64,000 bases of DNA, taken from an uncultured Roseovarius sp. Its GTDB lineage: Bacteria; Pseudomonadota; Alphaproteobacteria; Rhodobacterales; Rhodobacteraceae. The position numbers and the translations under genes are program-made. Below are positions 8,345 through 60,436 of the stretch, one piece after another. A model generated the notes under the pieces. That model was given only the letters and a program-made list of their open reading frames with translations, ran no database searches and was not told the origin of the DNA. How positions within the stretch are numbered: the first letter of the stretch is position 1; each line of letters opens with the position of its first letter. The stretch is taken from positions 992,001 through 1,056,000 of the forward strand of contig NZ_CANLER010000001.1 of NCBI RefSeq assembly GCF_947489715.1, read 5' to 3'.

Positions 8345-8375
8345 GGGCCGTGATCGACATCACGGCCCTTTTTTC
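8345..8375 (+). terminator. Rho-independent terminator after sgaA-hprA
   Basis: GGGCCGTGAT-CGAC-ATCACGGCCC, a perfect 10-bp stem, followed by six T residues. It ends the sgaA-hprA transcript and separates it from the gamma-glutamyltransferase gene. Confidence 0.93.
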
Positions 8376-8506
8376 GTGCTCGGATCGCCTTGCACTCAAC
8401 CACAGATAATGTCCTAATCAAAAGGTGCAGAGCTTCCCAATGTGGTCCCGCCGCCCTCCCCAAGCCGCTTTGCCCCCAAAGACATATCAACCGACGAGGT
8501 TTGACC

Positions 8507-38846: not shown

Positions 38847-39119
38847 ATGATCCTGCTCCCCTGCCCCAATTGCGGCCCTCGCGACGAAGGTGAATTCACC
38901 TATGGCGGGCCCCAGCGACAGCTTCCATCTCTGGACGGGCAATCCGGCACGGATGACTGGCTCAAGGCGTTGTTTCACCCGCAGAACCCGCGCGGCCCCA
39001 TGGTTGAGCTCTGGTATCACGCCAGTGGATGCGAGGCCTGGATTGAAGTGACGCGCGACACCGGCACGCATGAAATCATCGACGTTGCCACGAACCGCTT
39101 GCGGGACGACAAACAATGA
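38847..39119 (+). CDS. soxD: Sarcosine oxidase delta subunit
   Basis: A 90-residue small subunit, starting MILLPCPNCGPRDEGEFTYGG with the paired cysteines of the zinc-binding end, followed by GPMVELWYHASGCEAWIEVTRD. In the known tetramer this chain binds zinc structurally. It begins 13 bp after soxB and overlaps soxA by four bases (ATGA). Confidence 0.93.
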   Translation: MILLPCPNCGPRDEGEFTYGGPQRQLPSLDGQSGTDDWLKALFHPQNPRGPMVELWYHASGCEAWIEVTRDTGTHEIIDVATNRLRDDKQ

Positions 39120-41992
39120 CCCGCCTGCCCAAAGGCGGTTTGATAAATCGCGATACCAGACTGGATTTCACCTTTAATGGCCGACCCATGACAGGCCATC
39201 CGGGCGACACTCTGGCGTCGGCGCTTCTGGCGAACGGTCAGCATCTGGTTGCGCGCTCGATCAAGTACCACCGCCCGCGCGGCATCCTGTCGAACGGGCT
39301 GGAAGAACCTTGCGCGATGGTCACGGTCACCGATCAAACCGGCAACACTCCGAACCTCAAAGCCACCGAAGTGATGTTGCGGGGCGGCTTACATGTCACC
39401 AGTCAGAACAACTGGCCCAGCGTGACCCATGATGCGGGATCTGCGCTGCAATTGGGCGGCAGGATGCTTGCTGCCGGATTCTATTACAAAACCTTCAAAT
39501 GGCCCCGCGACGGCTGGCACAAGCGGTATGCCGGGATCATCCGCCGTTTAGCAGGGCACGGGCAAATTGATCCAAGCGCTGACAATGCGCTGTATGACAA
39601 ACGTCACAGGCACTGCGATATCCTTGTCATTGGCAGCGGTGCGGCAGGCCTCTCTGCCGCGCAGACAGCCGCCCACGCTGGCGCCACGACAATCCTGATC
39701 GAGCAGGATCACGTCTTGGGTGGAAGTCTTCTGTTCAGCCGAAACCAAATCGCCGGAGAGCTTGCGGCAGACTGGGCCAATGATGCCGTTGAGGCCCTGC
39801 AGGATTTGTCGAATGTCACTGTCATGTCACGCACACTTGCGTTTGGACAATATGACCACGGGCAGATTTTGGCGGTTGAGTCGATGCCCGCGGACAGCAA
39901 CGCCCGGGCCATCCTGTGGAAAATCCGCGCGCGCCGCATCCTTCTGGCCTCGGGCGCAACCGAGCGACCGATCGTCTTTCCCGGCAACGATCGTCCGGGC
40001 ATCATGCTGGGCGGGGCCGTGCGCAGCTATATCCGCCGTTTCTCGGTTGCACCGGGCACGCGCGCGGTTGTGGCCGTCGCCGACCCCGACGAAGGTGAGG
40101 ATACCTTTGCCGCCCTGAAAGAAGCGGGCATTGATGTGCGGGCGGTGCTGCCACCAGGTGCCGCGATCACCGGCACATCCGGGCGGCTGCACCTCAGGTC
40201 TGTTGGGTGGCGCGACCCGGGTGGCAAACGGCACCGGACCGCCTGCGACCTGCTCTGCGTTTCGGCGGGCTGGATGCCCAATGCGCATCTCTTTGCCCAG
40301 ATGGAAACAGGGTTGCAGTTTGACGGGACCACGCAAAGCCTGCTGCCACCCGACACCAGCGGCCCATTGCGTCCGATCGGTGGCGCGCGGGGCATCCTGA
40401 ATACCGCTGACTGCCTCACCGATGGCAAGGCCGCAGCGCATCAGGCACTGGCTGAACTGGAGATGCACAAACATCTCAACCTGCCGCGACCCGCCGCGAC
40501 ACCAGCCGCCCCGGGCTTTGACAGCGGTACCGGCAAGGCCTTTGTCGATCTGCAAAACGACGTGACACGGGACGATGTAGCACTGGCCATGCGCGAAGGG
40601 TATAAGGACATCGAACTGGTGAAACGCTACACCACCCTCGGCATGGGGACCGATCAGGGCAAGACCAGCTGGACCAACGGTGTTCTTGAAATCGCTACCC
40701 AATCAGGCCGCGATCCGGCTGAAATCGGCCACACGACCTATCGCCCGCCCTATTCGCCAGTCACCATCGGCGCCCTGATCGGAACCGAAACAGGCGACGA
40801 AATGGTGCCGATCCGCCACACACCATTCCACCGGGCGTTCGAGCGCATGGGATGTGTGTTCCAGACCTCTGGGGATTGGCTCTATGCGCGCTATTTCCCT
40901 CGTGATGATGAGACCATGCAGGATGCCGTGATCCGGGAATGCAATGCCGTAAGGAACGGGCTGGGCTGTGTGGACATGTCTACCCTGGGCAAGATCGACG
41001 TGCAGGGTCCGGACGCGCTGGAATTCCTCTCGCGCCTTTATTGCAACAACATCAGCACCCTCAAACCGGGCCACGTGCGCTATGCGTTGATGCTGCGCGA
41101 GGATGGGTATGTCTTTGACGATGGTACCGTCGCACAGCTCGGTGACGACCATTTCAGTGTCACGGCAACCACGGCCAATTCCGCATTCGTCTGGCGGCAT
41201 ATGACAAAATTCGCGCAGGTCGACTGGCCGGAACTGGACGTGACGCTGACAGACATAAGCGATCATTGGGCGTCGCTTGCCATTGCCGGGCCTCATGCCC
41301 GCGATCTGCTATTGGCACTTGCCCCTGATTTCGACTGTTCCCGCGATGGTTTTCCCTTTGCCCGCCTGCGTGAGGGGTTTCTTGGCAATGACCTTCCGGT
41401 CCGCGTCGTGTCGGTCAGTTTTTCAGGAGAGCCGTGTTTCGAGATCAACACCCCGGCGGGTTTCGCCGAAACGCTGCTCGAACGGGTCACGAAGCACGGT
41501 GCCGGATGGGACATCACCGCATACGGGCTGGAAGCATTGGATATGCTTCGGATCGAAAAAGGCCACCTGTCGATCGGCACGGAAATCGACGGCCGGAGAA
41601 CCGCAGACGATCTGGGTCTGGGCGCAATGGTGTCACAAAAGAAAGACTTTATCGGTCGCACCTTGCTTCAGCGCCCTGCCCTGCAAGCCTCGGAGCGGGA
41701 GCAACTGGTAGGTCTGACGCCCGAGGATGGCAGCAGCCCGATCCCCCACGGTGCCGTTCTGAGCGACCATCCCATCTCTGGGGATGGCCGGGCCTGTGGC
41801 TGCGGTCATCTGACGGCGGCCATTCACAGCCCTGCACTGGGCCACCCCATCGCATTGGGTTTTCTCACCAATGGTCGGGTCCGAACCGGTGATGTGCTCT
41901 GGGCCCAGTCACCGGTTTCGGGCCAATCAGTACGGGTCCGCGTCGGCCCGGTCTGCGCCTATGATCCGAAAGGGGAACGTCTGCATGGCTGA
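39116..41992 (+). CDS. soxA: Sarcosine oxidase alpha subunit
   Basis: The 958-residue NAD- and folate-binding subunit. Residues 15-100 are a ferredoxin-like/Fer2_4 domain (RPMTGHPGDTLASALLANG, SIKYHRPRGI). Residues 160-460 form an NAD/FAD-type domain (ILVIGSGAAGLSAAQTAAHAGA, LLASGATERPIVFPGNDRPG). The C-terminal 380 residues form a GcvT-like folate domain (IEKGHLSIGTEIDGRRTADDLGLG). Length matches the family. Methylene-tetrahydrofolate made here can feed serine synthesis and hence the serine cycle encoded at 6-13 kb. Overlaps soxD and soxG. Confidence 0.94.
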   Translation: MTRLPKGGLINRDTRLDFTFNGRPMTGHPGDTLASALLANGQHLVARSIKYHRPRGILSNGLEEPCAMVTVTDQTGNTPNLKATEVMLRGGLHVTSQNNWPSVTHDAGSALQLGGRMLAAGFYYKTFKWPRDGWHKRYAGIIRRLAGHGQIDPSADNALYDKRHRHCDILVIGSGAAGLSAAQTAAHAGATTILIEQDHVLGGSLLFSRNQIAGELAADWANDAVEALQDLSNVTVMSRTLAFGQYDHGQILAVESMPADSNARAILWKIRARRILLASGATERPIVFPGNDRPGIMLGGAVRSYIRRFSVAPGTRAVVAVADPDEGEDTFAALKEAGIDVRAVLPPGAAITGTSGRLHLRSVGWRDPGGKRHRTACDLLCVSAGWMPNAHLFAQMETGLQFDGTTQSLLPPDTSGPLRPIGGARGILNTADCLTDGKAAAHQALAELEMHKHLNLPRPAATPAAPGFDSGTGKAFVDLQNDVTRDDVALAMREGYKDIELVKRYTTLGMGTDQGKTSWTNGVLEIATQSGRDPAEIGHTTYRPPYSPVTIGALIGTETGDEMVPIRHTPFHRAFERMGCVFQTSGDWLYARYFPRDDETMQDAVIRECNAVRNGLGCVDMSTLGKIDVQGPDALEFLSRLYCNNISTLKPGHVRYALMLREDGYVFDDGTVAQLGDDHFSVTATTANSAFVWRHMTKFAQVDWPELDVTLTDISDHWASLAIAGPHARDLLLALAPDFDCSRDGFPFARLREGFLGNDLPVRVVSVSFSGEPCFEINTPAGFAETLLERVTKHGAGWDITAYGLEALDMLRIEKGHLSIGTEIDGRRTADDLGLGAMVSQKKDFIGRTLLQRPALQASEREQLVGLTPEDGSSPIPHGAVLSDHPISGDGRACGCGHLTAAIHSPALGHPIALGFLTNGRVRTGDVLWAQSPVSGQSVRVRVGPVCAYDPKGERLHG

Positions 41993-42537: not shown

Positions 42538-43581
42538 ATGTATCTCCGCAACACATGGTATGTCGCTGCATGGGACAGCGAAGTCACCCGCGAACCGCGT
42601 CAGATCAAGGTTCTGGGCGAAAAGATCGTCACCTTCCGGACCGAGGCCGGTGACCCGGTCGCGCTGATGGATGCCTGCCCGCACCGCAAGCTGCCCCTGT
42701 CGAAGGGTCGGATCAAAGGCGACAATATCGAATGCGGCTATCACGGCCTGACCTTCGATTGCGCCGGAAGCTGCGTGCGCGTCCCCGGCCAGGACCGAAT
42801 TCCGCCCTCGGCCAATGTCCATTCTTACCCGGTGATCAGCCGCTATGGTCTGGTCTGGATCTGGATGGGCGACCCGGCACTGGCCGACGCCGACACGATC
42901 TTCAAGGTCGACCATTTCGACGATCCCGCCTGGGGCATGAACCGTGGCGATGCGATGCCCTTCCCCTGCAACTACCTGCTGATCACCGACAATCTGCTGG
43001 ACCCCAGCCATGTGGCCTGGGTCCATCAAAGCTCCTTCGGCACCACCGCCTGCGAAGAGGAACCGCTGACCGTCACCGGCACCGATACCGGCGTGATCGT
43101 CTCGCGCTGGATGTACGACACCGAGGTCGCGCCCTTTTACAAGAAACTCGTGCCCTTCGACGGCAATTGCGACCGAGAGCAACATTACGAGGTGCGCTAT
43201 CCCTCGCTCGCCTATATCAAGGCGATCTTCACCCCGGCGGGCACGGGCGGCGACGCCTCGAACCTGCCCGAGGGGGAATACTTCCAGATGGACAGCTACA
43301 ATTTCATGACACCGGTCGATGAAAAGACGACGCGATACTACTGGTTCCAGATGCGCAACGTGTGTCCCGACGATGACGAGATTTCGCAATACATGAGCGA
43401 CTCGGTTCAGGTGGCCTTCAACGAAGACCGCGATATTCTGATCGAGGTGCAGAAGGGGATGGACGAAAAAGTAACCCGCAACATCGACATTGCCATCGAC
43501 GCAGGCCCCCTGCTCTATCGCCGCCGTCTGCAAAAACTCATCGACGCCGAAGCCAGACAGCCAGACCTGGAGGACGCATAG
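42538..43581 (+). CDS. Rieske non-heme iron oxygenase, VanA-like
   Basis: A 347-residue oxygenase. The Rieske cluster ligands are Cys47-x-His49 (ACPHRKLPL) and Cys66-x2-His69 (CGYHGLTF). The mononuclear iron site is D-x2-H-x4-H in LLDPSHVAWVHQ (His158, His163). Size and motifs match vanillate O-demethylase and related demethylating oxygenases rather than the larger glycine-betaine GbcA type. It needs an external reductase, not visible here. Because it is the last gene of the soxBDAG operon, one base after soxG, an N- or O-demethylation that yields a sarcosine-like product is inferred. AGAGGTTGAT precedes ATG 42538. Confidence 0.85.
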   Translation: MYLRNTWYVAAWDSEVTREPRQIKVLGEKIVTFRTEAGDPVALMDACPHRKLPLSKGRIKGDNIECGYHGLTFDCAGSCVRVPGQDRIPPSANVHSYPVISRYGLVWIWMGDPALADADTIFKVDHFDDPAWGMNRGDAMPFPCNYLLITDNLLDPSHVAWVHQSSFGTTACEEEPLTVTGTDTGVIVSRWMYDTEVAPFYKKLVPFDGNCDREQHYEVRYPSLAYIKAIFTPAGTGGDASNLPEGEYFQMDSYNFMTPVDEKTTRYYWFQMRNVCPDDDEISQYMSDSVQVAFNEDRDILIEVQKGMDEKVTRNIDIAIDAGPLLYRRRLQKLIDAEARQPDLEDA

Positions 43582-46968: not shown

Positions 46969-47985
46969 CTACGAGCCCAATACATCACCAGCGGGGATTT
47001 CAGGGGCCACGAGACAAAGGTGATCGCCGGGGTCAACGACCGGATTGCGCCGTTTGATCGCGACAATGCCATCACGGTCTGAATAAAGCTCATCCTGTAT
47101 GATGCCGAAGTTATGCAGGTCGTAAACTGTTGCCAGATGCACGCCCTTAGTGACCACGTCCCCGAGGCGCACATGGAACTGTGCCAGACCGTGATGGCGC
47201 GCTGTAACATGAACGCTGCGATCACCAATATCAATGAAACGCGTCGGTTGCGCATCCGTTTGATCAGCAATCAACCCCAGATACGCCAACAACCGTAAAG
47301 TCGCCTGCAAACCGATCTCGAAAGAGCGTTTGGAAAATCGGCCCAGCCCGCCCAATTCGCATGCCAGGAAGCGTGTCTGTTGATGATATGCCGCTGTGTC
47401 AAAATCACCGCCCGTCCCGTTAATCGGGCAGACCATGGTGAAAGGTGCGCCAAAAACCTTTGCCATTTCCAGATTGGCCTGATTCAACACCGCATCAGAC
47501 CCGAGGCACAGAAAACAGCAATCGACATATTGCGTCGCCGTACCACCAGAGTGGAAATCAACAACGACATCCGCCCGCGGTATCAGGTGGGCGTCAACGA
47601 ACCCAGCGATGGTTCCGGTTGGTCCCGCCCCCGCAGAACCCGGAAAACTGCGGTTCATATTGCCTTGATCCAGCGGAGAGACGCGTGAACGGTCCCGTAC
47701 GGCCGGCGCATTCAGCGCGGGCAACAAAATAAGGCGGCCTGACAGGTTTTCGGGCTCAAACATCTGCATCAGGTGATGCAAAATGACCTGCCCTTCGTAT
47801 TCGTCGCCGTGACTTCCAGCGGTCAGCAGAACCGTTGGCCCCGGCCCACCGCAAATGACGCCGACCGGCACACAGACCGAACTGAAGGCAAACTGGTTGT
47901 CCGAATGCTCCAACGTAATCATCCCAGTGCGTTTGCCTGGGCTGTCAAAATCGACAGAGGATCTTGCGGAGCCAAAAATCAGCAT
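46969..47985 (-). CDS. Succinylglutamate desuccinylase/aspartoacylase-family deacylase
   Basis: A 338-residue zinc carboxypeptidase-like enzyme of the AstE/AspA group. Zinc ligands are His59 and Glu62 in AGSHGDEYEG and His145 in VVDFHSGG. A further conserved block is FLACELGGLGRFSKR with the expected catalytic glutamate. Members remove acyl groups from N-acyl amino acids. DoeB of ectoine breakdown is a relative. It is the last gene of the eight-gene minus-strand operon, overlapping the lyase-like gene by seven bases, so it probably acts on a late intermediate of that pathway. Confidence 0.83.
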   Translation of the reverse strand: MLIFGSARSSVDFDSPGKRTGMITLEHSDNQFAFSSVCVPVGVICGGPGPTVLLTAGSHGDEYEGQVILHHLMQMFEPENLSGRLILLPALNAPAVRDRSRVSPLDQGNMNRSFPGSAGAGPTGTIAGFVDAHLIPRADVVVDFHSGGTATQYVDCCFLCLGSDAVLNQANLEMAKVFGAPFTMVCPINGTGGDFDTAAYHQQTRFLACELGGLGRFSKRSFEIGLQATLRLLAYLGLIADQTDAQPTRFIDIGDRSVHVTARHHGLAQFHVRLGDVVTKGVHLATVYDLHNFGIIQDELYSDRDGIVAIKRRNPVVDPGDHLCLVAPEIPAGDVLGS

Positions 47986-49466
47986 GGGTCACCTAAATTC
48001 GTCACCAATGCTTTCACAACATCAATGACAGGACAGAAATTAAAAACCTCTTGCCCTTCACGCCCCAACGGCAGCATCGGGCCAACCTGATCGTAGGCGT
48101 TTCGGACCTCGGCACCAAGACCTTCTCTTGGAAGGTCACGTATTTTTATCGCCCAGATGGCAATCAGTATTTCGTTCGCTAAAATCTGCCAGCCAAGGTC
48201 CAGTACCTCTTCGGTCCGCTGCACCGAAAGCGGCGCCATTCCGGACACGTCAATGGCCCCATCAACGATACCGTAAGAACACTCAAGCAATACCGGGACG
48301 GACAGCGTGCGCAGTTCGGCAAGGCGGGCTGCCGTCAGGTGGGGCAAGATGATGTTCTGAAAGCCACTTTCCGCCCGCGCCGGATCGGCAAACGCGGCAG
48401 GCAGGCCCGAAAATGCAGGGTTCTGCACTTTCATCGTGCGCTCGAAACTGACTGAAACCGCCACGGCCAACACCTGTCTCAGCATATCCATCGCACAGGT
48501 CAGTGGCGTGCTATCCATGTTGATCCCTGTCACGACCTCCCCCAATTCCAGAGAAACAACAGGATTGTCGCAGACACAGTTCAGATCATCTTCAAAAGCC
48601 TTCACTGCTGAATCATGTGCCTTACGCACGGCTCCATTGACGCGCATGGCAAAACGAAAGCTCAGCGGATCATGCAATTGCCGCCAATTTTCTGGTTTCC
48701 ACAAGGCCGAGCCTGATAGGGCGGCCCGGATGGCTTCAAGGGATTGTTTCTGATGTTGATTTCTGTAGCAGGCCGCCATTTCAACGCGCAGGTAGGACAG
48801 ATTTCCACGATGGGCCTCAAGCGAAACAGCGGCGGCCAGATCGAGCGCCCGAAGAAGATGCTTCGCTTGGCTCAGAACGATCGCCCCGTGCGCGATTGCA
48901 AAACTGTTATTGTTAACAAGCGAAACGGCCTCTTTGGCCGAAAGCGTGAAGGACACGCTATCCTCTGGATCCGGCGGCAGGTTTAAGACAGCGCTGGATA
49001 GTTGTGCCAACGGACCCAAGTCAGAAGAGCCGGTCGAGATATTGCGCCGGATCTCGGGCATCTGACCGGTTTGAAAAAATTCCAGCAGGTGTCGGATCAA
49101 GACTGGGCGAATTCCCAGCCGACCTGTTGCCGCGTTGTTTAACAGTACCAGCAAGGCCGCACGAACCACCGCTTCGTCAAAGGCCGGGCCGGGAAAACTG
49201 GTTTGCTCCGAAATGATCACTGCGCGGTTGAACGCCTCGACCTCATCGTCGTGCAAGCGCCGATCCTTTTGCGAACCCACGCCCGTGTTGATGCCATAGA
49301 GTGGTTTGCCACTTTGCATCATTGCTTCGACTATGGCACGGGCCTCTCCAACCCGGTTCCACGCTTCCTCTGACAGATCGACAGCGCATTTCCCGCGCAC
49401 AAGGGCAACCAGGGTATCAACAGTAAGGCTTTCGCCATCCAACAGGGTGGTTTCTGCATCTTTCAT
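47979..49466 (-). CDS. Histidine-ammonia-lyase-fold protein with altered MIO triad
   Basis: A 495-residue member of the HAL/PAL superfamily. It has the N-terminal YGINTGVGS with Tyr57 at the catalytic-base position, and VQNPAFSGLPAAFADP. Where HAL carries Ala-Ser-Gly (forming the MIO electrophile) followed by DLAPLA, this protein has STGSSDLGPLAQL, that is Gly146-Ser147-Ser148. Other HAL active-site words (NGTQ, NFHG, QDPYSLR) are also changed (NNSF, GINMD, HDPLSFR). Ordinary histidine deamination is therefore doubtful. HAL-fold ergothionase, which eliminates trimethylamine, is a precedent for a different elimination. It overlaps mttB-like and deacylase genes by 4 and 7 bases. Confidence 0.82.
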   Translation of the reverse strand: MKDAETTLLDGESLTVDTLVALVRGKCAVDLSEEAWNRVGEARAIVEAMMQSGKPLYGINTGVGSQKDRRLHDDEVEAFNRAVIISEQTSFPGPAFDEAVVRAALLVLLNNAATGRLGIRPVLIRHLLEFFQTGQMPEIRRNISTGSSDLGPLAQLSSAVLNLPPDPEDSVSFTLSAKEAVSLVNNNSFAIAHGAIVLSQAKHLLRALDLAAAVSLEAHRGNLSYLRVEMAACYRNQHQKQSLEAIRAALSGSALWKPENWRQLHDPLSFRFAMRVNGAVRKAHDSAVKAFEDDLNCVCDNPVVSLELGEVVTGINMDSTPLTCAMDMLRQVLAVAVSVSFERTMKVQNPAFSGLPAAFADPARAESGFQNIILPHLTAARLAELRTLSVPVLLECSYGIVDGAIDVSGMAPLSVQRTEEVLDLGWQILANEILIAIWAIKIRDLPREGLGAEVRNAYDQVGPMLPLGREGQEVFNFCPVIDVVKALVTNLGDPC

Positions 49467-50974
49467 GGCCCAAGAATCTCCGCTTTCCGCCGCACCACAT
49501 ATGCTTCAAGCTCCTCTTCTATCGCCGGATCAATCGGGGGCTTTTCATAGTCACGCAGCAGCTGTTTCCAGATCATGTTAGCGCGCTCCGTTGCTGTCTT
49601 GGCACCATCCTCTTGCCAGGCCTCGAAATTCCGCCAATCAGAGAGCAAGGGGCTGTAAAAAGCTGTTTCATACCGGGCCAGCGTATGTGCCGTGCCAAAG
49701 AAGTGGCCGCCCGGCCCTGCTTCGGCCATGGCATCCAGTCCAAGCGCGTCTTCGCTCAAGTCGATTGGGTCAAGGAACGCCGCCTGCATTTGCAGCAACT
49801 CGGCATCGAGGATCAGTTTTTCAAACGAACAGGTCAATCCGCCTTCCAGCCATCCGCCCGCATGCATCATCACGTTGATGTGGCCTTGGATACAGGCATT
49901 GATCGACATGTCGGATTCGTAGGTTGCCTGAGCATCCATGCAGGCCGCTGCCGTCGTGTTGGAAGATCGGATCGGAATGCCATAGCGCCGTGCCATCTGG
50001 CCCGAAATGATCACGGATTGGGCATATTCGGGCGTGCCGAAAGCGGGTGAGCCGGTCCTCATATCCACGTTTGAGGTGAAATGCCCGTAGAACACGGGCG
50101 ATCCGCGACAGGCCGCTTGGCCCAGCACAATTCCCGCCAGCGCCTCGGCATTCTGCTGCACCAGGGAGCCACCGATCGTGGCGGGACTCATCGCGCCTGC
50201 CAGCGTGAAAGGGGTGATATGTACCGGCTGACCGGCACGGGCAAATTCGATCACAGCTTCGGCCTGTCCATCGTCGAAAAGCAGTGGTGAATTGGTGTTG
50301 ACGCCGCCCAGAATGCCCGGTTTTGCGCGCAGACCTTCGTCATCGGTGCCGAGCGCAATTCTAGCCATCTCGATGCAATCTCGCGCACGGGCGGCGGTGT
50401 TCATCCAGCAGGGTTGCCAACCCTTGTCGCAGAGTGTGGTTTGCGCCAGCATCATGTCCAGATGCCGGGTTTCGGGTGGCAGTTCCAGTGGCTCACACCC
50501 CGCCCCACCTTCATGGTGGAAGATGTTCAGCGATGCTGAAAGCCTGACGAAATTGCGCATATCCTCGAGCGTTCCGGCCCGTCGGCCCCGGTCAAGGTCA
50601 GAGACAAAGGACGGCCCGCAAACGGTGGCAAAAGTCAGGGAATTGCCGCCCACCGTCACGCTCTTCTCCGGATTTCGGGCATGGATCATGAATTCCGCCG
50701 GAAGCTCGGTTAGCGTCTCCTCGACCATGTCCGGTTCAAACCGAACGCGATCACCATCCACATCCGCGCCAGCCTTGACCAGAAGCCGGCGTGCCACCGC
50801 ACTGTCGACCTTGAGACCGATATCGCGCAGCACTTGCAAACTGGCCTGATGGATGGTTTCAACTTGATCGACCGAGATCAACTCAGTCGGGCGTAACGGG
50901 TTCCGTACCTCGCCAAACGGTCTTTGGCCAAGACCTGTTTCACGAGTTCTGCGGGTGTTGCGGCGACGGGACAT
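49463..50974 (-). CDS. MttB-family (non-pyrrolysine) methylamine:corrinoid methyltransferase 1
   Basis: A 503-residue TIM-barrel methyltransferase of the trimethylamine methyltransferase superfamily. Family blocks are ETIHQASLQVLRDIGLKVDS at the N-terminus, LTFATVCGPSFVSDL, TPFTLAGAMSPATIGGSLVQQNAEALAG read in part, GSPAFGTPEYAQSVI and HTLARYETAFYSPLLSDWRN. There is no in-frame amber codon, so it belongs to the non-pyrrolysine branch whose characterised members demethylate quaternary amines (glycine betaine, proline betaine, carnitine) onto a corrinoid protein. The start at 50974 follows AGGAGAAAAGAA. It overlaps the lyase-like gene (ATGA). The basic N-terminus (MSRRRNTRRTRE) is shared in style with the second copy at 60437. 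Confidence 0.9.
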   Translation of the reverse strand: MSRRRNTRRTRETGLGQRPFGEVRNPLRPTELISVDQVETIHQASLQVLRDIGLKVDSAVARRLLVKAGADVDGDRVRFEPDMVEETLTELPAEFMIHARNPEKSVTVGGNSLTFATVCGPSFVSDLDRGRRAGTLEDMRNFVRLSASLNIFHHEGGAGCEPLELPPETRHLDMMLAQTTLCDKGWQPCWMNTAARARDCIEMARIALGTDDEGLRAKPGILGGVNTNSPLLFDDGQAEAVIEFARAGQPVHITPFTLAGAMSPATIGGSLVQQNAEALAGIVLGQAACRGSPVFYGHFTSNVDMRTGSPAFGTPEYAQSVIISGQMARRYGIPIRSSNTTAAACMDAQATYESDMSINACIQGHINVMMHAGGWLEGGLTCSFEKLILDAELLQMQAAFLDPIDLSEDALGLDAMAEAGPGGHFFGTAHTLARYETAFYSPLLSDWRNFEAWQEDGAKTATERANMIWKQLLRDYEKPPIDPAIEEELEAYVVRRKAEILGP

Positions 50975-51068
50975 TTCTTTTCTCCTGAATTGACGTGGCA
51001 TTTGGCGGTATGGCCGCCATCCCGCCCGCCCAGGTTTCTTCACCCATCACCGCAAAGAACTTACACAT
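50940..51068 (-). CDS. Small ORF overlapping the start of mttB-like 1
   Basis: A 42-codon frame beginning MCKFFAVMGEETWAGGMAAI with GGGGGAG seven bases before its ATG. It fills the 110-bp gap after the racemase gene and runs 35 bp into the methyltransferase gene in another frame. The arrangement fits a small protein or a coupling leader. No family is recognised and chance is possible. Confidence 0.38.
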   Translation of the reverse strand: MCKFFAVMGEETWAGGMAAIPPNATSIQEKRNVPSPQHPQNS

Positions 51069-51084: not shown

Positions 51085-51834
51085 TCAGATATAACCACTG
51101 TAGCGCTTTGGCACGACAGCGCGATGCAACCACTCCACGCAAGCGATGAAGTCAAATACCGGTAGCCCGGTTGCGCTCCTCACCTCATTTGCAAAGGGTG
51201 GCAGACTGGTGCATTCCAGCAGGACTGCCCCAATATCGGGGTCTTGCTCCCGGCTCCCGGCGATTGCATTCAGAACATCTTTGCACAGGTCATCATATTC
51301 AAAACTGATAGCCGTACCCCCCATACAAACGGCGTTGAAAACCTTTGAGTCGTCCAGACCGGCAAGCGCGATCCTGTGACCCAAGTCAGCACCAACAGCA
51401 GAAAAAAACTCACTCGTCAGCAATTTTGCTGCGGCGGTTACAACCAACACTTTCTGATCCGGGTGGATCATCTGCTGGATAACGGGGAGCATCATCAGCG
51501 GCGACGTCATAACAGGGATGCTGACATGCTTCGCCAGAACCGGCTGGATCAACGAAAAAAATCCACAACACATTGCGATAGCGCGCACCCCGTCGCGTTC
51601 CAACTGAACAGCCGCGTCGATGCAACTCTGAACCTCGGCAGTATAGCTGCCATCTGCCTTGGTCAGCGGTGGGTATGGATTGTCCTCAAGCCCCTTGATC
51701 TGACGCAGCAGAACCGGAAACGGATAGCTTGTCGCATTTCCCACATCACCCGGCGGCATGGGAAATAGCTTGTTGTCGAACATCAGGATACCAACACTGT
51801 AGCCCTGATAAGAATGCCCGCCTTTGATGATCAT
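51085..51834 (-). CDS. Asp/Glu/hydantoin racemase-family protein
   Basis: A 249-residue protein with the two-cysteine arrangement of PLP-independent racemases: AIAMCCGFFSL (first) and AVLLECTSLPPFANEV (second). It also has IPVMTSPLMMLPVI and KVLVVTAAAKLL. The family includes aspartate/glutamate racemase, hydantoin racemase and maleate isomerase, and the sequence does not choose. ATG 51834 follows a perfect AGGAGG. Its place between a dimethylglycine-dehydrogenase-like gene and a methyltransferase gene implies racemisation or isomerisation of a catabolic intermediate. Confidence 0.78.
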   Translation of the reverse strand: MIIKGGHSYQGYSVGILMFDNKLFPMPPGDVGNATSYPFPVLLRQIKGLEDNPYPPLTKADGSYTAEVQSCIDAAVQLERDGVRAIAMCCGFFSLIQPVLAKHVSIPVMTSPLMMLPVIQQMIHPDQKVLVVTAAAKLLTSEFFSAVGADLGHRIALAGLDDSKVFNAVCMGGTAISFEYDDLCKDVLNAIAGSREQDPDIGAVLLECTSLPPFANEVRSATGLPVFDFIACVEWLHRAVVPKRYSGYI

Positions 51835-51849
51835 GACCGCCTCCTCGCT

Positions 51850-54258
51850 TCAGGCTCGCATCCGAAGACCTTGGGGATCGTATAACGGCGCAGGGCACAG
51901 CGTTGCGGGGCGTAGCTGTCCTAGGATTTCCACCGCATAATCGCCATTCTCTCGAAAAGCATCCGGCGTCACATACCCAAGCGCGATGTGTTGTTCGACC
52001 TGCGGCCCCCAGCCACCGGATGAGATATATCCCACGGGCTCACCATCCAGAAAAACCGCCTCATCCCCCCAGATGGCGCAGTCACCTGCCTCCACTGTGA
52101 AGGTGACCGGGCGTTCTCGTGGGACGGCATAGGCCATCACCGCGTCGCGTCCGACGAAATCCCCCTTATCGGGCTTCACATGGTGCATCATCCCGCATTC
52201 ATGGGCCAGGTAATCCGGGCTTAGTTCAGCACCCCAGGCCGGAAAGCTCTTTTCAAGCCGCAGCATCATCAGGCTACGCAATCCGGCCAATGTCAGACCC
52301 AGCGTTTCGCCCTCACGGCGCAGCGTGTCAAAAAGGGCAAGTTGGCGGTCACGCGGCATATAGATTTCATATCCCGTCTCCCCGGTATACGAGACCCGGA
52401 TGGTCGTGACACCCGCGATCCCGGCGACGGTCATGTCGGCCGCATCGAGAAACCGGAAATGCGCGCTGTCCATCTGGTGATCAGCAAGCTTGCTGATCAG
52501 GGCCTGTGCGTTCGGTCCGGCAATATGCAGGCCGGCCAGCGTGTCGGACACATTCCGCAGACTGACCCCGTCAGCGGGCAGGTATTTCGCGAAATACCGC
52601 ATGAAAGCCAGTTGCATCGCGTAGGAGCCGATGACCAGAAACCGGTCCCCCAGATTGGAAATGGTGAAATCGCCCAGCAATCGGCCCTTATCCGACAACA
52701 TGGCGCTCAGGCACATGCGCCCCGGATTCGGGAGCCGGTTGGTCATTACGCGGTTCAGCCAACGTTCGGCACCCGCACCTGTGACTTCGAATTTCGCCAT
52801 GTCGGAAAAATCGAACAGCCCTACAGCATCACGCACGCGCTTGCCCTCGTCCGCCACCGGCTGCCACCAGTTGGGCTGGCGATAGGTCAGGCTGTCTTGC
52901 GCCTTTGTTCCCGTGGGTGCGAACCACGTAGCGTGTTCGCCGCCAAACGCCGTGCCGAACACCGCACCGGCCTCTGCCTGCCGGTCATAAACCGGGTTCT
53001 TGCGCTGCGGGCGGGCGGCATCGAAGCTCTGGTAGGGAAATATCTTCTCGGACCGGTTTTCATAGAAATACCGGGTCATCTCTTCGGTGTATTTCCTGTC
53101 CGCCCAATCCCCGAACCGCGCCACATCCCAATTGAAAATATCGATCTCTGGCTCGCCACCGATGATCCATTCCGATATCACCCGGCCGATCCCCGCGCCC
53201 TGATTGAACCCCGCCATCACGCCATTGGCGCAGAAATAGTTGCGCAGGGCCGGGTGCGGGCCGATCAACGGGCTCAGATCCGGCGAAAAGATCATCGGTC
53301 CGTTGATCACTCGTTTTACCCCTGCCTCGGCAAGACAGGGCATGATTTCCACGGATTTCTCGAAGTTCCATTCCATGCAGGATAGATCGTCGGGCAACAG
53401 CTCGTGCCCGAAATCAGCGGGCGTACCATCCTTGGCCCAATGTGTGCAGGTATCCTCGTAAGCACCCAGCAGCATCCCCATGCCTTCCTGCCGCGCGTAA
53501 CAACCGGTTTCATTGTCGTTGATCTGGGGCAGCTCAAAACCGAGGTTTTCGACTATCGGGATCGGTTCCGTCACCAGATAGTGATGTTCGACCGGCATCA
53601 ACGGCAGCTCGATCCCGGCCAGCCTGCCCACTTCGCGCCCCCAGAGGCCGGCGGCATTGACCACATATTCGGCGTGAACGGTACCAGCCTTTGTCACCAC
53701 GTCCCAGGTTCCGTCGACCCGCTGGCGGGTCGCGGTCACCGGCCTGTGGCGATGGATGGTTGCCCCCAATTGGCGCGCGGCGGCGGCAAATGCCTGCGTC
53801 GCCGAGGCCGGATCGACATGGCCGCCTTCATCCTCCCAGAAGGCGCCGATCATGTGAGTTGTGTCCAGCACCGGCGCCTTTTCCTTTGCTTCGTCAAGTG
53901 AGATGAAATGACCCTCAATCCCCAATCGTCGGCATGCACTTTGCATCATGGCGTTGCTGTCGATCTCCTCCTGTGTGCGGCAGATGTTGATGCCGCCGGT
54001 AAAATGGAATCCACAGGGTTGGCCGCTTTCTTCTTCCAGCATGCGATAGATCTGGAAAGTATAGCGGTGCATTTCCGCGGCTGAGTTGGGCCGCACGACG
54101 GTAAACAATCCACCCGCCGCGTGCCAGCTGGAGCCCGAGGTTAGTTCCTGCCGCTCAAGCAGCATCACATCGGTCCAGCCGTTTTTGGTCAGATGATAGA
54201 GGATCGAGCAGCCAACCACGCCGCCCCCGATTACAACAACACGGGCTGTCGCATTCAT
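51850..54258 (-). CDS. Dimethylglycine/sarcosine dehydrogenase-like FAD/folate protein
   Basis: An 802-residue two-part enzyme. Residues 1-400 form a DAO-type FAD domain (VVVIGGGVVGCSILYHLTKNG, GSSWHAAGGL with the His that often carries covalent FAD, YVVNAAGLWGREVG). Residues 430-800 form a GcvT/aminomethyltransferase-type folate domain (YTGETGYEIYMPRDRQ, RLEKSFPAWGAELSPDYLAHECGM). Relatives oxidatively demethylate dimethylglycine or sarcosine and form methylene-tetrahydrofolate. The exact N-methyl substrate is open. It lies 49 bp after the ABC ATPase gene and 15 bp before the racemase gene. Confidence 0.88.
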   Translation of the reverse strand: MNATARVVVIGGGVVGCSILYHLTKNGWTDVMLLERQELTSGSSWHAAGGLFTVVRPNSAAEMHRYTFQIYRMLEEESGQPCGFHFTGGINICRTQEEIDSNAMMQSACRRLGIEGHFISLDEAKEKAPVLDTTHMIGAFWEDEGGHVDPASATQAFAAAARQLGATIHRHRPVTATRQRVDGTWDVVTKAGTVHAEYVVNAAGLWGREVGRLAGIELPLMPVEHHYLVTEPIPIVENLGFELPQINDNETGCYARQEGMGMLLGAYEDTCTHWAKDGTPADFGHELLPDDLSCMEWNFEKSVEIMPCLAEAGVKRVINGPMIFSPDLSPLIGPHPALRNYFCANGVMAGFNQGAGIGRVISEWIIGGEPEIDIFNWDVARFGDWADRKYTEEMTRYFYENRSEKIFPYQSFDAARPQRKNPVYDRQAEAGAVFGTAFGGEHATWFAPTGTKAQDSLTYRQPNWWQPVADEGKRVRDAVGLFDFSDMAKFEVTGAGAERWLNRVMTNRLPNPGRMCLSAMLSDKGRLLGDFTISNLGDRFLVIGSYAMQLAFMRYFAKYLPADGVSLRNVSDTLAGLHIAGPNAQALISKLADHQMDSAHFRFLDAADMTVAGIAGVTTIRVSYTGETGYEIYMPRDRQLALFDTLRREGETLGLTLAGLRSLMMLRLEKSFPAWGAELSPDYLAHECGMMHHVKPDKGDFVGRDAVMAYAVPRERPVTFTVEAGDCAIWGDEAVFLDGEPVGYISSGGWGPQVEQHIALGYVTPDAFRENGDYAVEILGQLRPATLCPAPLYDPQGLRMRA

Positions 54259-54307: not shown

Positions 54308-55960
54308 CTAATCTCCCAAGGCTGCCACCAGCTTGCGACGCTCGACGACGGCCTCATCCAGCCAGTCGGTGCGCATTTCCGGCACCGAGTTCAGCAATAA
54401 TTGCGTGTATTCATGACAGGGCGGCGTCAGCACCTGATCCACGGTGCCTTGCGCCACGATACGTCCCAGCCGCATTACCGCGATGCGCTCTGATATCTTG
54501 GCGACCGTGGCGATATCATGAGTGATGAACATGTAGCTCAGGTTCAACTCGTCCTGCAGGTCTTCGAGCAGGTCAAGGATTTGCTGCGCCACGATTGTAT
54601 CAAGCGCCGAGGTGATCTCATCACAAATGATCAGCCGGGGTTCTGCCGCCAGTGCGCGGGCCAGGTTGACCCGTTGCCGCTGTCCGCCCGAAAGTTCAGG
54701 TGGGAAGCGCCAGGCGAAATCGGTTGGCAGATCGACCCGTTCCAGCAGACGCGCGACCTCTTTATCGGCCTCACGTCGCGACAGGCCGCGATAGAACTGC
54801 ATGGGTCGGCTGAGTATCTTGTTCAGGCGCTGACGTGGATTCAGCGCGACATCGGCCATCTGAAAGGCAAACTGTATCTGCCGCAGGTCTTCTTTTGAAC
54901 GCTGCCCGACGCTCTGCGCAAGTTGTTGACCGTCCAGATATATCCCGCCCTTTTTGGCGCCCATCAAGCCCGAGATTAGGCGCCCAAGCGTAGTTTTGCC
55001 CGACCCGCTTTCGCCAATCACACCCACTGTTTCGCCCGCGTGGATGGTAAGGTCGATATCCTGCAGGGCGATTATGTCCTGGTTTGGTCCATAGCCTGCG
55101 GTTGCATTCCTGACCTGCAGCAGTGGCGCGTCCTCGTTGGTTACAACCGGCGGGGCGTGAATTTCGTCGGGCATCAGATGCGCCGCCGCCATCAGGGCCT
55201 TGGTGTAATCATGCTGCGGATCGCTGATGATCTGCTCGGTTGCACCATATTCGACCATCTGGCCGTCTTTCAGCACGAGAATATGGTCGGCCACCTGTGC
55301 CACCAGCGATAGATCGTGGGTCACGTAGATGGCGGCGGTATTGTGATCCTTAATCAGTTTCTTGAAGGAATAGAGAACCTCGATCTGGGTGGTCACGTCC
55401 AGCGCCGTGGTGGGTTCATCCAGGATCAGCAGGCGCGGGTCGCTGATCATCGCCATCGCCGCCATCAGCCTTTGCAACTGTCCACCCGACACCTGATGCG
55501 GGTAGCGTTTTCCGATATTGTCCGGATCGGGCAGTTCGAGATCACGATAGAGCTGTGCCGCCTTGGCCAACGCGTCGCTGCGGCTCATCGCGCCGGTGAT
55601 GATCGGGATTTCCGTGACCTGCGCGTCGATTGTCATCGCCCCGTTGAAGGAGGCCGCAGCGGATTGTGCAACATAGGTGATGTCCTTGCCGCGCAACTCC
55701 TGCAAAGCTGCCAGGGATTGATCCAGCACATTGACACCGCCCAGCTCCACCGAGCCGCCGGTTATGTGGCAACCAGGCCGCGTATATCCCATGCACCCCA
55801 GCGAGATCGTCGTCTTGCCCGACCCGCTTTCACCGATCAGCGCGATCACCTCACCCGGCTGCACATCGAACGAGATATCATCCACGATCTTGAACTCGTG
55901 ACCTTTCTTGTCACGGACCGAGACATCAAGATTGCGAACTTTCAACAGTGGCGCTGGCAT
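54308..55960 (-). CDS. Peptide/nickel-type ABC transporter, fused double ATPase
   Basis: About 550 residues holding two ABC domains in one chain (DppD-DppF fusion). Each has Walker A GESGSGKTT (near residues 43 and 325), a signature (SGGQLQRLMAAMAM and LSGGQRQRVNLARALA) and Walker B (LLILDEPTTALD and LIICDEITSALD). Fused DppDF/GsiA-like ATPases are common in alphaproteobacteria. They power import by the two permeases encoded just upstream. The start could be 55972 or 55960. The latter gives MPAPLLKVRNLDV, the common beginning. The permease stop lies between the two candidates. Confidence 0.9.
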   Translation of the reverse strand: MPAPLLKVRNLDVSVRDKKGHEFKIVDDISFDVQPGEVIALIGESGSGKTTISLGCMGYTRPGCHITGGSVELGGVNVLDQSLAALQELRGKDITYVAQSAAASFNGAMTIDAQVTEIPIITGAMSRSDALAKAAQLYRDLELPDPDNIGKRYPHQVSGGQLQRLMAAMAMISDPRLLILDEPTTALDVTTQIEVLYSFKKLIKDHNTAAIYVTHDLSLVAQVADHILVLKDGQMVEYGATEQIISDPQHDYTKALMAAAHLMPDEIHAPPVVTNEDAPLLQVRNATAGYGPNQDIIALQDIDLTIHAGETVGVIGESGSGKTTLGRLISGLMGAKKGGIYLDGQQLAQSVGQRSKEDLRQIQFAFQMADVALNPRQRLNKILSRPMQFYRGLSRREADKEVARLLERVDLPTDFAWRFPPELSGGQRQRVNLARALAAEPRLIICDEITSALDTIVAQQILDLLEDLQDELNLSYMFITHDIATVAKISERIAVMRLGRIVAQGTVDQVLTPPCHEYTQLLLNSVPEMRTDWLDEAVVERRKLVAALGD

Positions 55961-55961
55961 A

Positions 55962-56825
55962 TCAGATCTCATCCGGCAATTTCGCGCTGGACCGCTGCAA
56001 CAGCCAGTCGACGAAGACGTTCATGGAAATGGCGATCAGAGCGATACCGAAAGCCGGATAGAGCGTGGTGTATTCGCCATAGAGGATCGCCTGCATGTTC
56101 TCCTTGACCATGACGCCAAGATCGGATTGCGGCGGCTGCACCCCCAGCCCCAGAAAACTGAGCGCCGAGATGAAGAGGATGGCATAGGTAAAGCGAATGC
56201 CGAATTCGGCGGCCAGCGGTGTCAGCGCGTTTGGCAGGACCTCGTGCCAGACGATCCATCCCTTGCCTTCGCCGCGCACAATGGCGGCCTCGACATAATC
56301 CATCACCATGATGTTGACCGCCAGCGCCCGGGAGACGCGGAAAACCCGGGTCATGTCGATAAACGCGATGGTAAAGACAAGCACCACGAAAGATGATCCA
56401 AGCGAGTTGATCACGATCAGCGCCAGCATCAGCGCCGGAAAGCTGAGCATCGCGTCGTTAACGCGGCTCATCCACATATCCACCCGGCCACCAAAGGCCG
56501 CCGCCAGAAACCCCAGGCCAACCCCTGCAAAAAACGACAGGAAGGTGATGACCAGAGCCAGAAACAGGGTAATCCGAACGCCGTAGATGAGGCGCGAAAG
56601 CACGTCTCTGCCAAGGTAATCACTGCCCAGCCACATGATGTCACTGGGCGGCTCAAAGCTTTCGTTGGTCAGGATTTCACCTTCTCCGTAGGGTGCGAAC
56701 CACGGCGCAAATGCACCCACCAGAAAGACGAAGATCAGAAACAGCACCGCTAGGGTGACACCGGGTGTCAGATCTGAAACGGCCTCGCGCAGTTCTCCCT
56801 GCCATGTTCGCGCCTGTGCGGTCAT
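55962..56825 (-). CDS. Peptide-type ABC transporter permease (DppC-like)
   Basis: A 287-residue inner-membrane permease with a cytoplasmic N-terminus (MTAQARTWQGELREAVSD), a first helix VTLAVLFLIFVFLVGAFAPW, and the EAA loop region ALTPLAAEFGIRFTYAILFISALSFLGLG, read in part. The ATG at 56825 overlaps the stop of the DppB-like gene by four bases. An in-frame ATG at 56918 lies inside that gene. It forms the channel with its partner at 56822. Confidence 0.92.
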   Translation of the reverse strand: MTAQARTWQGELREAVSDLTPGVTLAVLFLIFVFLVGAFAPWFAPYGEGEILTNESFEPPSDIMWLGSDYLGRDVLSRLIYGVRITLFLALVITFLSFFAGVGLGFLAAAFGGRVDMWMSRVNDAMLSFPALMLALIVINSLGSSFVVLVFTIAFIDMTRVFRVSRALAVNIMVMDYVEAAIVRGEGKGWIVWHEVLPNALTPLAAEFGIRFTYAILFISALSFLGLGVQPPQSDLGVMVKENMQAILYGEYTTLYPAFGIALIAISMNVFVDWLLQRSSAKLPDEI

Positions 56826-57775
56826 TTCTTGTACCTCACACGCGGGTTGGCCATGATCGACAGGATATCCGCCGTCATGTTGAGGATAATGTAGACCGAG
56901 CAGAAGATCATGGCACAAGTCTGCACGATCGGCACATCCCGGTTGGTTACCGCCTCGACCATGTAGCGGCCCAGACCGGGGAAATTGAACAGCGTCTCAA
57001 TCACAACGACCCCACTGATCAGGTAGGCAAGGTTCAGGGCAATCACGTTGATGATGGGACCAAATGCGTTGGGCAAGGCATGCCGCAGCAGAAGCCGTCG
57101 ACGCGGGACACCTTTAAGGATCGCCATTTCAATCGCCGGGCTGGACAGGACATTCAGCACCGCAGACCGCGTCATCCGAACCATGTGTGCCAGGATCGTG
57201 AAGGTCAGCCCCATCACCGGTAGGATCAATATTCTTATCCAGTCCACAAGCTCGTAACTTGGCCGGATCGAGGCGATGGCCGGAAGCCACCTTAACTTGA
57301 CGGCAAAGATCGTCACCAAGACCACGGCAACCAGAAAGTCGGGAAAGGAAATCAGCGCGAGCGAACTTGAGGTAATCGCCCGATCGACGATGCCGCCAGG
57401 TTTCACGGCCGCTGCAAGCCCCAGAATGATCGACAGCGGAACGGCAATCACTGTCGTGCAAAGTGCAAGAATGATCGTGTTGCTGGCACGCCGGCCGATC
57501 TCGGTTCCGATATCTGCGCCATTTGCCAGAGAAGTCCCGAAATCACCGGTGACGAAATTTCCGAGCCAGACAAAATAACGAATATGAAGCGGCTGATCGA
57601 GCCCCAAACGCTCTTTGATTTGCGCGACAAGTTCGGGTGTGGCCCCCTGCCCCAGAATGGCATGTGCAACGTCTCCGGGCAGGATTTCCGTCCCGATAAA
57701 AACAAGTACCGATACAAACAATAGCGTCCCGACGCCAAAAACCAGCCGCTTGCCGAGAATTTCCAGAATGCTCAT
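56822..57775 (-). CDS. Peptide-type ABC transporter permease (DppB-like)
   Basis: A 317-residue permease with the DppB-type N-terminus (ILGKRLVFGVGTLLFVSVLVF), ATPELVAQIKERLGLDQPLHIRYFVWLGNF, a signature of the family's periplasmic loop read in part, and the EAA motif region RHALPNAFGPIINVIALNLAYLISG. First gene of the eight-gene operon running to 46969. A CTGTGATCACAG operator candidate is 47 bp upstream of ATG 57775, and GGGGAT stands before the ATG. The binding protein is encoded divergently at 58772. Confidence 0.93.
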   Translation of the reverse strand: MSILEILGKRLVFGVGTLLFVSVLVFIGTEILPGDVAHAILGQGATPELVAQIKERLGLDQPLHIRYFVWLGNFVTGDFGTSLANGADIGTEIGRRASNTIILALCTTVIAVPLSIILGLAAAVKPGGIVDRAITSSSLALISFPDFLVAVVLVTIFAVKLRWLPAIASIRPSYELVDWIRILILPVMGLTFTILAHMVRMTRSAVLNVLSSPAIEMAILKGVPRRRLLLRHALPNAFGPIINVIALNLAYLISGVVVIETLFNFPGLGRYMVEAVTNRDVPIVQTCAMIFCSVYIILNMTADILSIMANPRVRYKK

Positions 57776-57889: not shown

Positions 57890-58552
57890 CTAGCCAAGTT
57901 CGCGAAAAAGTTCGACACCCCAGCGAGCATCTTCTTCCATGAGGCGGCGCGTTTCTGCCTTATCCCGCTGACCCAATGCAGTGATTATATGGTCGTGTTC
58001 GCCCATCCATTTGTCCGGTTTTACAAGATTGGTGATACCATAGGCCAGCCACGGGCCCGTTCGCACATAAAGCGCGTCGATCATGGATTGCAGCGCGCTG
58101 TTGCCAGTCAGCGAGTAAACATGCCGGTGAAACTGGTAATTCGCGAACAGGAAGTCCGAGGCATGCTGTTTTCCCCATGCCGCTTCCAGATCTATATTGT
58201 GTTTCCGCAGTATCTTTATATCTGCTTCGCTCACACGTTCCGCAGCGATCTCTGCAGCAGCCCCCTCCAGCACGGCGCGGACGAAAAACAAATCTGCTGC
58301 CTGTTCAGATGTCAGGTTGGGGACCCGGTAGGCTTTCTTAGCTGCGCCGATCAACGCATCTTCAGAGGCGAGTTGGCGCAATGCCTCACGGACCGGCATT
58401 GCCGAGACTTTGTATTCTTCAGCCAAGGTGCGAATGGACAAGTTTTCCGCAGGCCTTAGATCACCCACGATGAGTTTCCGCTGCAAGTCCGAATAGATGC
58501 CTGCGCTAAGATTTGCAGGCGCGCTGATATCCGGTTTGAGGGCCTGATTCAT
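57890..58552 (-). CDS. GntR-family regulator, FCD subgroup
   Basis: A 220-residue regulator. Residues 15-80 form the GntR winged HTH (AGIYSDLQRKLIVGDLRPAENLSIRTLAEEYKVSAMPVREALRQL, quoted for its MPVREALRQLASE key part). Residues 85-215 form the all-helical FCD ligand domain, with acidic and histidine residues typical of metal-assisted carboxylate binding (NYQFHRHVYSLTGN, GEHDHIITAL). The gene is bracketed by CTGTGATCACAG sites at 57822 and 58671, the second being its own upstream region. It probably represses the soxBDAG, NicX-like, dpp-mttB and binding-protein operons until a pathway acid binds. Confidence 0.9.
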   Translation of the reverse strand: MNQALKPDISAPANLSAGIYSDLQRKLIVGDLRPAENLSIRTLAEEYKVSAMPVREALRQLASEDALIGAAKKAYRVPNLTSEQAADLFFVRAVLEGAAAEIAAERVSEADIKILRKHNIDLEAAWGKQHASDFLFANYQFHRHVYSLTGNSALQSMIDALYVRTGPWLAYGITNLVKPDKWMGEHDHIITALGQRDKAETRRLMEEDARWGVELFRELG

Positions 58553-60370: not shown

Positions 60371-60436
60371 TCAGCGCGACAAACGATCAGGCCAGTGGCA
60401 AATTGCTGGCCTGAACCCCGGCATAGCGAGGGTGAC

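Follow-up and report, generated by a model that had tools for sequence, protein, structure and literature searches.

In the accessible part of PMC3903478, the Ala-Ser-Gly triad that forms the 4-methylideneimidazole-5-one (MIO) group is described as strictly conserved in MIO enzymes, and exchange of its serine for alanine decreased the activity of both Pseudomonas putida histidine ammonia-lyase (HAL) and parsley phenylalanine ammonia-lyase (PAL) more than 1000-fold. Ergothionase, known here from the sequence and structures of the Treponema denticola enzyme (6s7j, 6s7q), is a trimethylamine-releasing lyase without MIO, according to the available part of PMC13405746, and it does not appear in the main text of a paper on the origin of MIO enzymes (PMC9002059). 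Two further kinds of systems are relevant to this work, i.e., the non-pyrrolysine MttB systems acting on glycine betaine, carnitine and gamma-butyrobetaine, for which the available portion of PMC8604678 mentions no HAL-fold partner, and the carnitine monooxygenase CntA, a group V Rieske enzyme with a bridging Glu, whose group is linked to quaternary amines in the accessible parts of PMC7948474 and PMC10952381. Here, we describe a gene located on the minus strand of a 64,000-nucleotide stretch of DNA of an uncultured Roseovarius sp. (the whole analysed stretch is called the window below). Its product lacks the MIO-forming triad and is probably a lyase without MIO, with an alpha-trimethylammonio acid as the substrate and trimethylamine as the leaving group. 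The gene and the sites discussed are as follows.

47979..49466, minus strand: predicted MIO-less HAL-fold lyase of 495 aa, the subject of this work (open reading frame, Pfam, structure search, model, tree)
49206..49208, minus strand: Glu87 at the HAL His83 position, changing the Ser-His dyad (available part of PMC11432326) into Ser-Glu (alignment)
49020..49037, minus strand: shortened MIO loop, residues 144-149, STGSSD, with one residue deleted against SVGASGD (MAFFT alignments)
48672..48674, minus strand: His265 at the HAL Gln277 position (alignment)
48429..48431, minus strand: Lys346 (alignment)
48252..48254, minus strand: Ile405 at the HAL Glu414 position (alignment)

The 495-aa HAL-fold protein is real; its frame is uninterrupted and the product matches Pfam Lyase_aromatic (2.6e-83; 280.7 bits with a cut-off of 27.3), the wider family, for which MIO is not required. 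The cut-offs of the NCBIfam ammonia-lyases were not reached (best 217.6 vs. 524 bits among the eight models listed), and the host genome has its own HutH gene elsewhere, with the triad intact (G000:C2:475013-476392). Comparison with the Roseovarius aestuarii copy (locus L087) gave a ratio of nonsynonymous to synonymous substitutions (dN/dS) of 0.124, which is rough at a lyase dS of 1.43 and points to purifying selection; the values for the neighbouring genes encoding the MttB-family and dimethylglycine-dehydrogenase (DMGDH)-like proteins were 0.045 and 0.071. The lyase evolves faster than these neighbours (73% identity to R. aestuarii, compared with 92% for MttB and 91% for the DMGDH-like protein), as might be expected of a decaying or non-catalytic paralogue carried in the operon. 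Such decay is highly improbable in view of the dN/dS value, the open frame, the overlapping gene ends and the retention of Tyr57, Arg271 and Lys346.

An earlier note on this DNA had read the loop as Gly-Ser-Ser in place of Ala-Ser-Gly. The absence of the triad was borne out by the alignments with HutH, relatives and ergothionase, while the straight replacement was abandoned, once the relatives had been aligned, in favour of a one-residue deletion between conserved anchors. In the MAFFT alignments HutH reads GSVGASGDL, the window protein NISTGS-SDL and ergothionase RSSIGE-GDI, the last two being one residue short, and the flanking S-x-G and D-L are retained in the window protein. Both sequence words quoted in that note, STGSSDLGPLAQL and YGINTGVG, are present in the translation. 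All 80 relatives retained by a scan of named genomes have the deletion; as deletion proteins had served as the seeds of that scan, the count means consistency and not frequency. Together with the dN/dS of 0.124, it indicates that the deletion did not arise by chance.

The two remaining loop residues are variable (most commonly A-S and A-A, moreover A-G, E-G, E-A, T-A, M-S, G-S and others), and Ser occupies the first of these places in only two of the 77 deletion rows, i.e., in the window protein and L116, so that no MIO-forming pattern is conserved. MIO is presumably absent from the protein, and a role as a MIO ammonia-lyase is very unlikely. The presence of Ser147 could still be taken to mean that MIO or a MIO-like group is formed from Gly-Ser-Ser in an ordinary aromatic ammonia-lyase, which seems scarcely credible: the loop is one residue short, the rare serine is replaced by Gly in the nearest relative and by Met in the next one, and the Ser-to-Ala data cited above for two enzymes (more than 1000-fold loss; accessible part of PMC3903478) also speak against it.

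Relatives were collected by protein searches of 292 (order), 385 (class) and 398 (phylum) genomes, which returned HutH and deletion-type proteins mixed together; the best 30 of the listed matches for the order and the best 20 each for the class and phylum were considered, and of these only the ones fetched as loci were read. From the 145 relatives that turned up in the named genomes, the scan kept the best 80. Genes in the relatives were called by a simple script that missed some of them (L109 has no called lyase, and the Rieske gene of L088 was found by tblastn). Before the construction of a quick 87-row tree, 20 of 107 rows were dropped (near-copies and partial rows); for the 79-row tree, 24 of the 87 rows, including the very long L021, were removed and 16 were added. 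Relatives of the window protein are overrepresented in the samples, which contain neither PAL, tyrosine ammonia-lyase and aminomutases of known function nor the Burkholderia ergothionase.

In the 79-row tree, built without the loop columns and with no root inferred, 55 deletion rows, including ergothionase, formed one side of a single branch (support 100/99), while the branch separating the MIO rows from the rest was weak (43/6). The 87-row tree agrees, with a Shimodaira-Hasegawa-like approximate likelihood-ratio test (SH-aLRT) value of 99 for the deletion group (77 rows). The window protein shows both the loop deletion and a position on that side of the branch, and is thus a member of the deletion clade. 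It lies outside the HutH rows in both trees; a placement in the true histidine ammonia-lyase clade, which would speak against a MIO-less protein, was not seen. Within the deletion group, ergothionase together with L127 and L165 is separated from the remaining 52 rows (91/70). The closest partner of the window protein is R. aestuarii L087 (73% identity; 100/100), followed by L088, a Rhodobacteraceae metagenome-assembled genome (MAG) (52%; 100/99), and further by L089, L090, L091 and L093 (100/99); this group is called the Glu87 subclade below.

Other changes of the MIO loop were also seen. A second HAL-fold group (L061, L063 (+1455) and L065) has a three-residue deletion (GSVGY---L) and forms its own branch in the 79-row tree (100/100); in L063, this gene directly adjoins an intact HutH frame. 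In L208 (2001-3413, Fusobacterium vincentii), no residue is missing from the HAL-type loop, but it has SSG in place of ASG.

The AlphaFold model of the protein (48 rows) has the HAL fold, with a predicted local distance difference test (pLDDT) score of 93.1 and a predicted template modelling score (pTM) of 0.93. The closest solved structure by sequence is ergothionase (6s7j, 1e-41). Foldseek also placed ergothionase first (TM 0.89), followed by HAL 1b8f (TM 0.86), and VIA-align gave a Z of 42.2 for ergothionase (479 aligned residues, root-mean-square deviation 2.1), 40.4 for tyrosine aminomutase and 39.1 for HAL 1b8f. The absence of a family from such structural match lists excludes nothing. 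The comparison with ergothionase drawn in the earlier note is therefore upheld by sequence, fold and common membership in the deletion clade.

Active-site positions were placed by alignment to HAL (97 deletion rows and 7 MIO rows), with the P. putida HAL numbers Tyr280, Arg283, Gln277, Phe329 and Tyr53. The positions of Tyr53 (Tyr57 in the window protein; 95 of the 97 deletion rows) and Arg283 (Arg271; 97/97) are kept. The Tyr280 position is Leu in 96 deletion rows and in one MIO row, and Lys occurs at position 346 in 90 deletion rows and in none of the MIO rows, L087 having Arg there. Thus, the window protein shares with P. putida HutH (1b8f) the fold, the Tyr53 loop and the Arg283 position, and differs from it in the lack of Ala-Ser-Gly and in the exchange of Tyr280 for Leu, Glu414 for Ile, Gln277 for His and His83 for Glu. 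With the Treponema ergothionase (27% identity) it shares the fold, the loop deletion, the clade and the Tyr, Arg and Lys positions, whereas the equivalents of His83 and Glu414 are Glu and Ile, respectively. In the available part of PMC11432326, the roles of HAL active-site residues include a Ser-His substrate-switch dyad; at the His83 position, all 7 rows of the Glu87 subclade read Glu, while the other deletion rows read His (61) or Arg (28), with one gap. The Glu414 position is Glu in 94 of the 97 deletion rows, with one gap, and Ile only in the window protein and L087. As L088-L093 combine Glu87 with Glu at position 405, this second change is confined to the closest pair. The Gln277 position is His in three deletion rows, the same pair among them.

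Ergothionase reportedly works by acid/base catalysis, as described in the paper on its structure. Without the MIO electrophile, ammonia would not be expelled, and a substrate with an already good leaving group would be needed; a beta proton would be taken by acid/base catalysis, trimethylamine would be expelled from the betaine and an unsaturated acid would be left. MIO is not needed for the departure of a quaternary nitrogen, and this would account for how the loop could be lost. The side-chain pocket appears to have been rebuilt, by the change of His83 into Glu87 in the whole subclade and, in the window protein and R. aestuarii, also by those of Glu414 into Ile405 and Gln277 into His265. A betaine other than ergothioneine is therefore the more probable substrate. 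Its side chain might present Glu87 with an N-H or a positively charged group; tryptophan betaine or betaines of basic amino acids would be our guess. A search of the literature on hypaphorine and indoleacrylate yielded no lead.

The deletion clade and the best structural match would also suit a true ergothionase or a hercynine lyase, with thiourocanate or urocanate as the product, and relatives from another subclade adjoin urocanase genes. Nevertheless, this alternative is distinctly improbable for the window protein. The His and Glu common to ergothionase and HAL are missing from it, none of the six Glu87-subclade relatives has urocanase within 6 kb, and a protein query gave a single urocanase match in the host genome, on contig C2 near the ordinary HutH. 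The reading as ergothionase proper was accordingly rejected, on Glu87 and Ile405 and on the branch apart from the Treponema enzyme, and with these changes in the pocket ergothioneine and hercynine are unlikely substrates.

The surroundings of the gene comprise the following features.

39116..41992, plus strand: sarcosine-oxidase alpha-family protein, syntenic in R. aestuarii (outer neighbourhood; presumed link with the lyase)
42538..43581, plus strand: VanA-type Rieske oxygenase (profile match)
46969..47985, minus strand: AstE/AspA-type deacylase (nearest NCBIfam model DoeB, below its cut-off)
49463..51043, minus strand: MttB-superfamily methyltransferase, non-pyrrolysine (Pfam MTTB 7.1e-189; no in-frame stop)
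51085..51834, minus strand: Asp/Glu/hydantoin racemase-family protein (profile match; 85% identical copy in R. aestuarii)
51850..54258, minus strand: DMGDH-like flavoprotein with a folate (GCV_T) domain (two genes upstream of the MttB-family gene)
54308..55972, minus strand: Opp-type ATP-binding cassette (ABC) transporter ATPase (named from sequence; 97% identical in R. aestuarii)
55962..56918, minus strand: Opp-type permease (named from sequence; 97% identical in R. aestuarii)
56822..57775, minus strand: Opp-type permease (named from sequence; 97% identical in R. aestuarii)
57890..58552, minus strand: GntR-family regulator (profile match)
58772..60370, plus strand: family-5 solute-binding protein (SBP5), divergent from the operon (profile match; presumed link with the transporter)
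60395..61849, plus strand: second MttB-superfamily protein, divergent (profile match)

The operon runs from the transporter genes through those of the DMGDH-like flavoprotein, the racemase-family protein and MttB to the lyase and AstE-type genes. As the earlier note had observed, the neighbours of the lyase gene overlap it: it starts within the stop of the MttB-family gene (4 nt, ATGA) and ends within the start of the AstE-type gene (7 nt). The best solved relatives of the MttB-family protein were a putative trimethylamine methyltransferase (4yyc, 3.2e-113) and a glycine betaine methyltransferase (9yce, 1.3e-97), and it scored 297.6 bits vs. 525 for the pyrrolysine family. As in the non-pyrrolysine MttB systems, the MttB-family frame next door is uninterrupted. 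Such neighbours agree with the proposed context of methylated and quaternary amine catabolism. The window gene lies in an MttB/DMGDH-type operon; the comparison with the Treponema ergothionase covered sequence and structure. The betaine might enter via the Opp/SBP5 transporter, and related methylated amines might be the substrates of MttB and the DMGDH-like enzyme. The genome also encodes a trimethylamine N-oxide (TMAO) demethylase above the curated cut-off (1195 vs. 1100 bits), and the released trimethylamine might be used through TMAO. Its only B12-binding_2 match lies about 170 kb from the operon.

The same neighbours allow a different order of events, in which MttB, the DMGDH-like enzyme and a Rieske enzyme demethylate first, and the window protein then receives a product with fewer methyl groups, or another product altogether, and converts it by an addition or an elimination in which no tertiary amine leaves. 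Several genes of N-demethylation type are located nearby, the Glu414 position is lost, and the fold is distantly similar to that of aspartases and fumarases. We consider this order unlikely, since loss of an unactivated amine without MIO would be hard, and the one member of the clade nameable by a known function expels trimethylamine; moreover, fumarases stand far down the VIA-align list (Z 13-14.4), where helical folds with a Z of about 13 may have little significance.

In R. aestuarii, all the operon genes from the transporter to the AstE-type gene are kept, with 81-97% identity except for the lyase, and a Rieske gene stands next to them. L088 retains the MttB, lyase and DMGDH-like genes, with a Rieske gene 4 kb away. 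In L089, L090, L091 and L093, the lyase is accompanied by two Rieske genes, and the stretch screened gave no match to MttB. Synteny of the window is not conserved with relatives of 35-40% identity.

A CntA-like Rieske gene was found within 6 kb of the lyase in all six fetched relatives of the Glu87 subclade and in none of 76 other loci; when all 118 loci were screened, it was absent from the 112 others, the window included. The counting was done after the association had been noticed, with a query taken from a single subclade member (L087), and the six relatives are related to each other, so that any p value is only descriptive. Among solved structures, the Rieske proteins of the subclade are nearest to carnitine monooxygenase; the word NFMEGYH is common to all six copies and places Glu at the position of the CntA bridging carboxylate (6/6). 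VanA-type Rieske homologues occur within 8 kb in five of the six subclade relatives, but also at six of 20 ordinary HutH loci.

For the wider clade, near-copies and partial rows were excluded, and the context was counted on the remaining 62 of 80 named loci. At least one of four amine markers lay within 6 kb at 12 of 62 deletion loci and at none of 20 HutH loci (p 0.033; the relatives are not independent).

Several observations weigh against an elimination of trimethylamine in such a setting. Without the Glu87 subclade, the amine markers fall to 6 of 56 deletion loci, with 0 of 20 HutH loci (p 0.33), i.e., an MttB- or DMGDH-like neighbour is no general trait of the deletion clade, and a clade-wide enrichment in amine genes was therefore given up. 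VanA-type Rieske genes, present at ordinary HutH loci, are not specific. The window has no copy of the CntA-like Rieske gene, and a search for its relic (E up to 1) gave only a weak match over the VanA-type gene and two matches at chance level; the nearest CntA-like protein of the host genome is 54% identical and encoded on another contig. In the MAG L088, the frame of this gene (8367-9527) is interrupted by an internal stop; either the sequence contains an error at this place or the gene is broken. Furthermore, neighbour paralogues are numerous in the host genome (13 MttB-family matches, 8 of them at least 628 bits, and 31 matches to the TMAO-demethylase model, mostly to its GCV_T part), which weakens arguments from proximity. 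Finally, as the window protein and L087 are without the Glu kept in 94 of the 97 deletion rows, the mechanism of ergothionase is not simply transferable to them.

The control HutH loci with a VanA-type Rieske homologue (52-64%) were L188, L190, L193, L194, L199 and L200.

It is conceivable, if somewhat doubtful, that the deletion clade as a whole represents a large family of betaine lyases, frequently mislabelled and acting on several substrates. The branch of the window protein would then be a new one, with swapped catalytic and binding groups, and would eliminate trimethylamine from a betaine of undescribed breakdown. Some proteins of the clade are labelled ammonia-lyases although they have no cofactor-making triad; L206 (199-1734, Deinococcus sp. 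KNUC1210) is annotated as an aromatic amino acid ammonia-lyase despite its one-residue loop deletion. If betaine lyases they are, they would constitute an overlooked source of trimethylamine in the sea and soil, and their urocanase, UbiD, Rieske and MttB neighbours would provide several ready guesses on the substrates, while the window branch would show how this fold works once the cofactor and also the usual Glu have been lost. Literature searches on MIO-less members, on the conversion of hercynine into urocanate and trimethylamine and on ergothioneine degradation returned, among the entries listed, no title or abstract beginning describing this clade, within a coverage mostly without subscription papers, which is no proof of novelty.

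In another subclade of the deletion group, urocanase was located within 6 kb of the lyase in 7 of 32 loci and UbiD in 6 of 32. The former loci (L100, L104, L105 and L116-L119) have the deletion-type lyase beside urocanase, six of the seven also with a HutH frame with an intact triad, which fits a urocanate-forming lyase beside an ordinary HutH; these proteins are candidate hercynine lyases. Nisaea and Taklimakanibacter have such urocanase-linked relatives. In L108, L113, L114, L121, L124 and L153, a UbiD homologue comes after the deletion-type lyase, and some of these loci also encode a UbiX-like flavoprotein, which would suit the decarboxylation of an acrylate product. In L073, L074, L096-L098, L101, L103 and L122, the deletion-type lyase occurs with a HalD/2-oxoglutarate-oxygenase-like gene and a gene of the M24 peptidase family.

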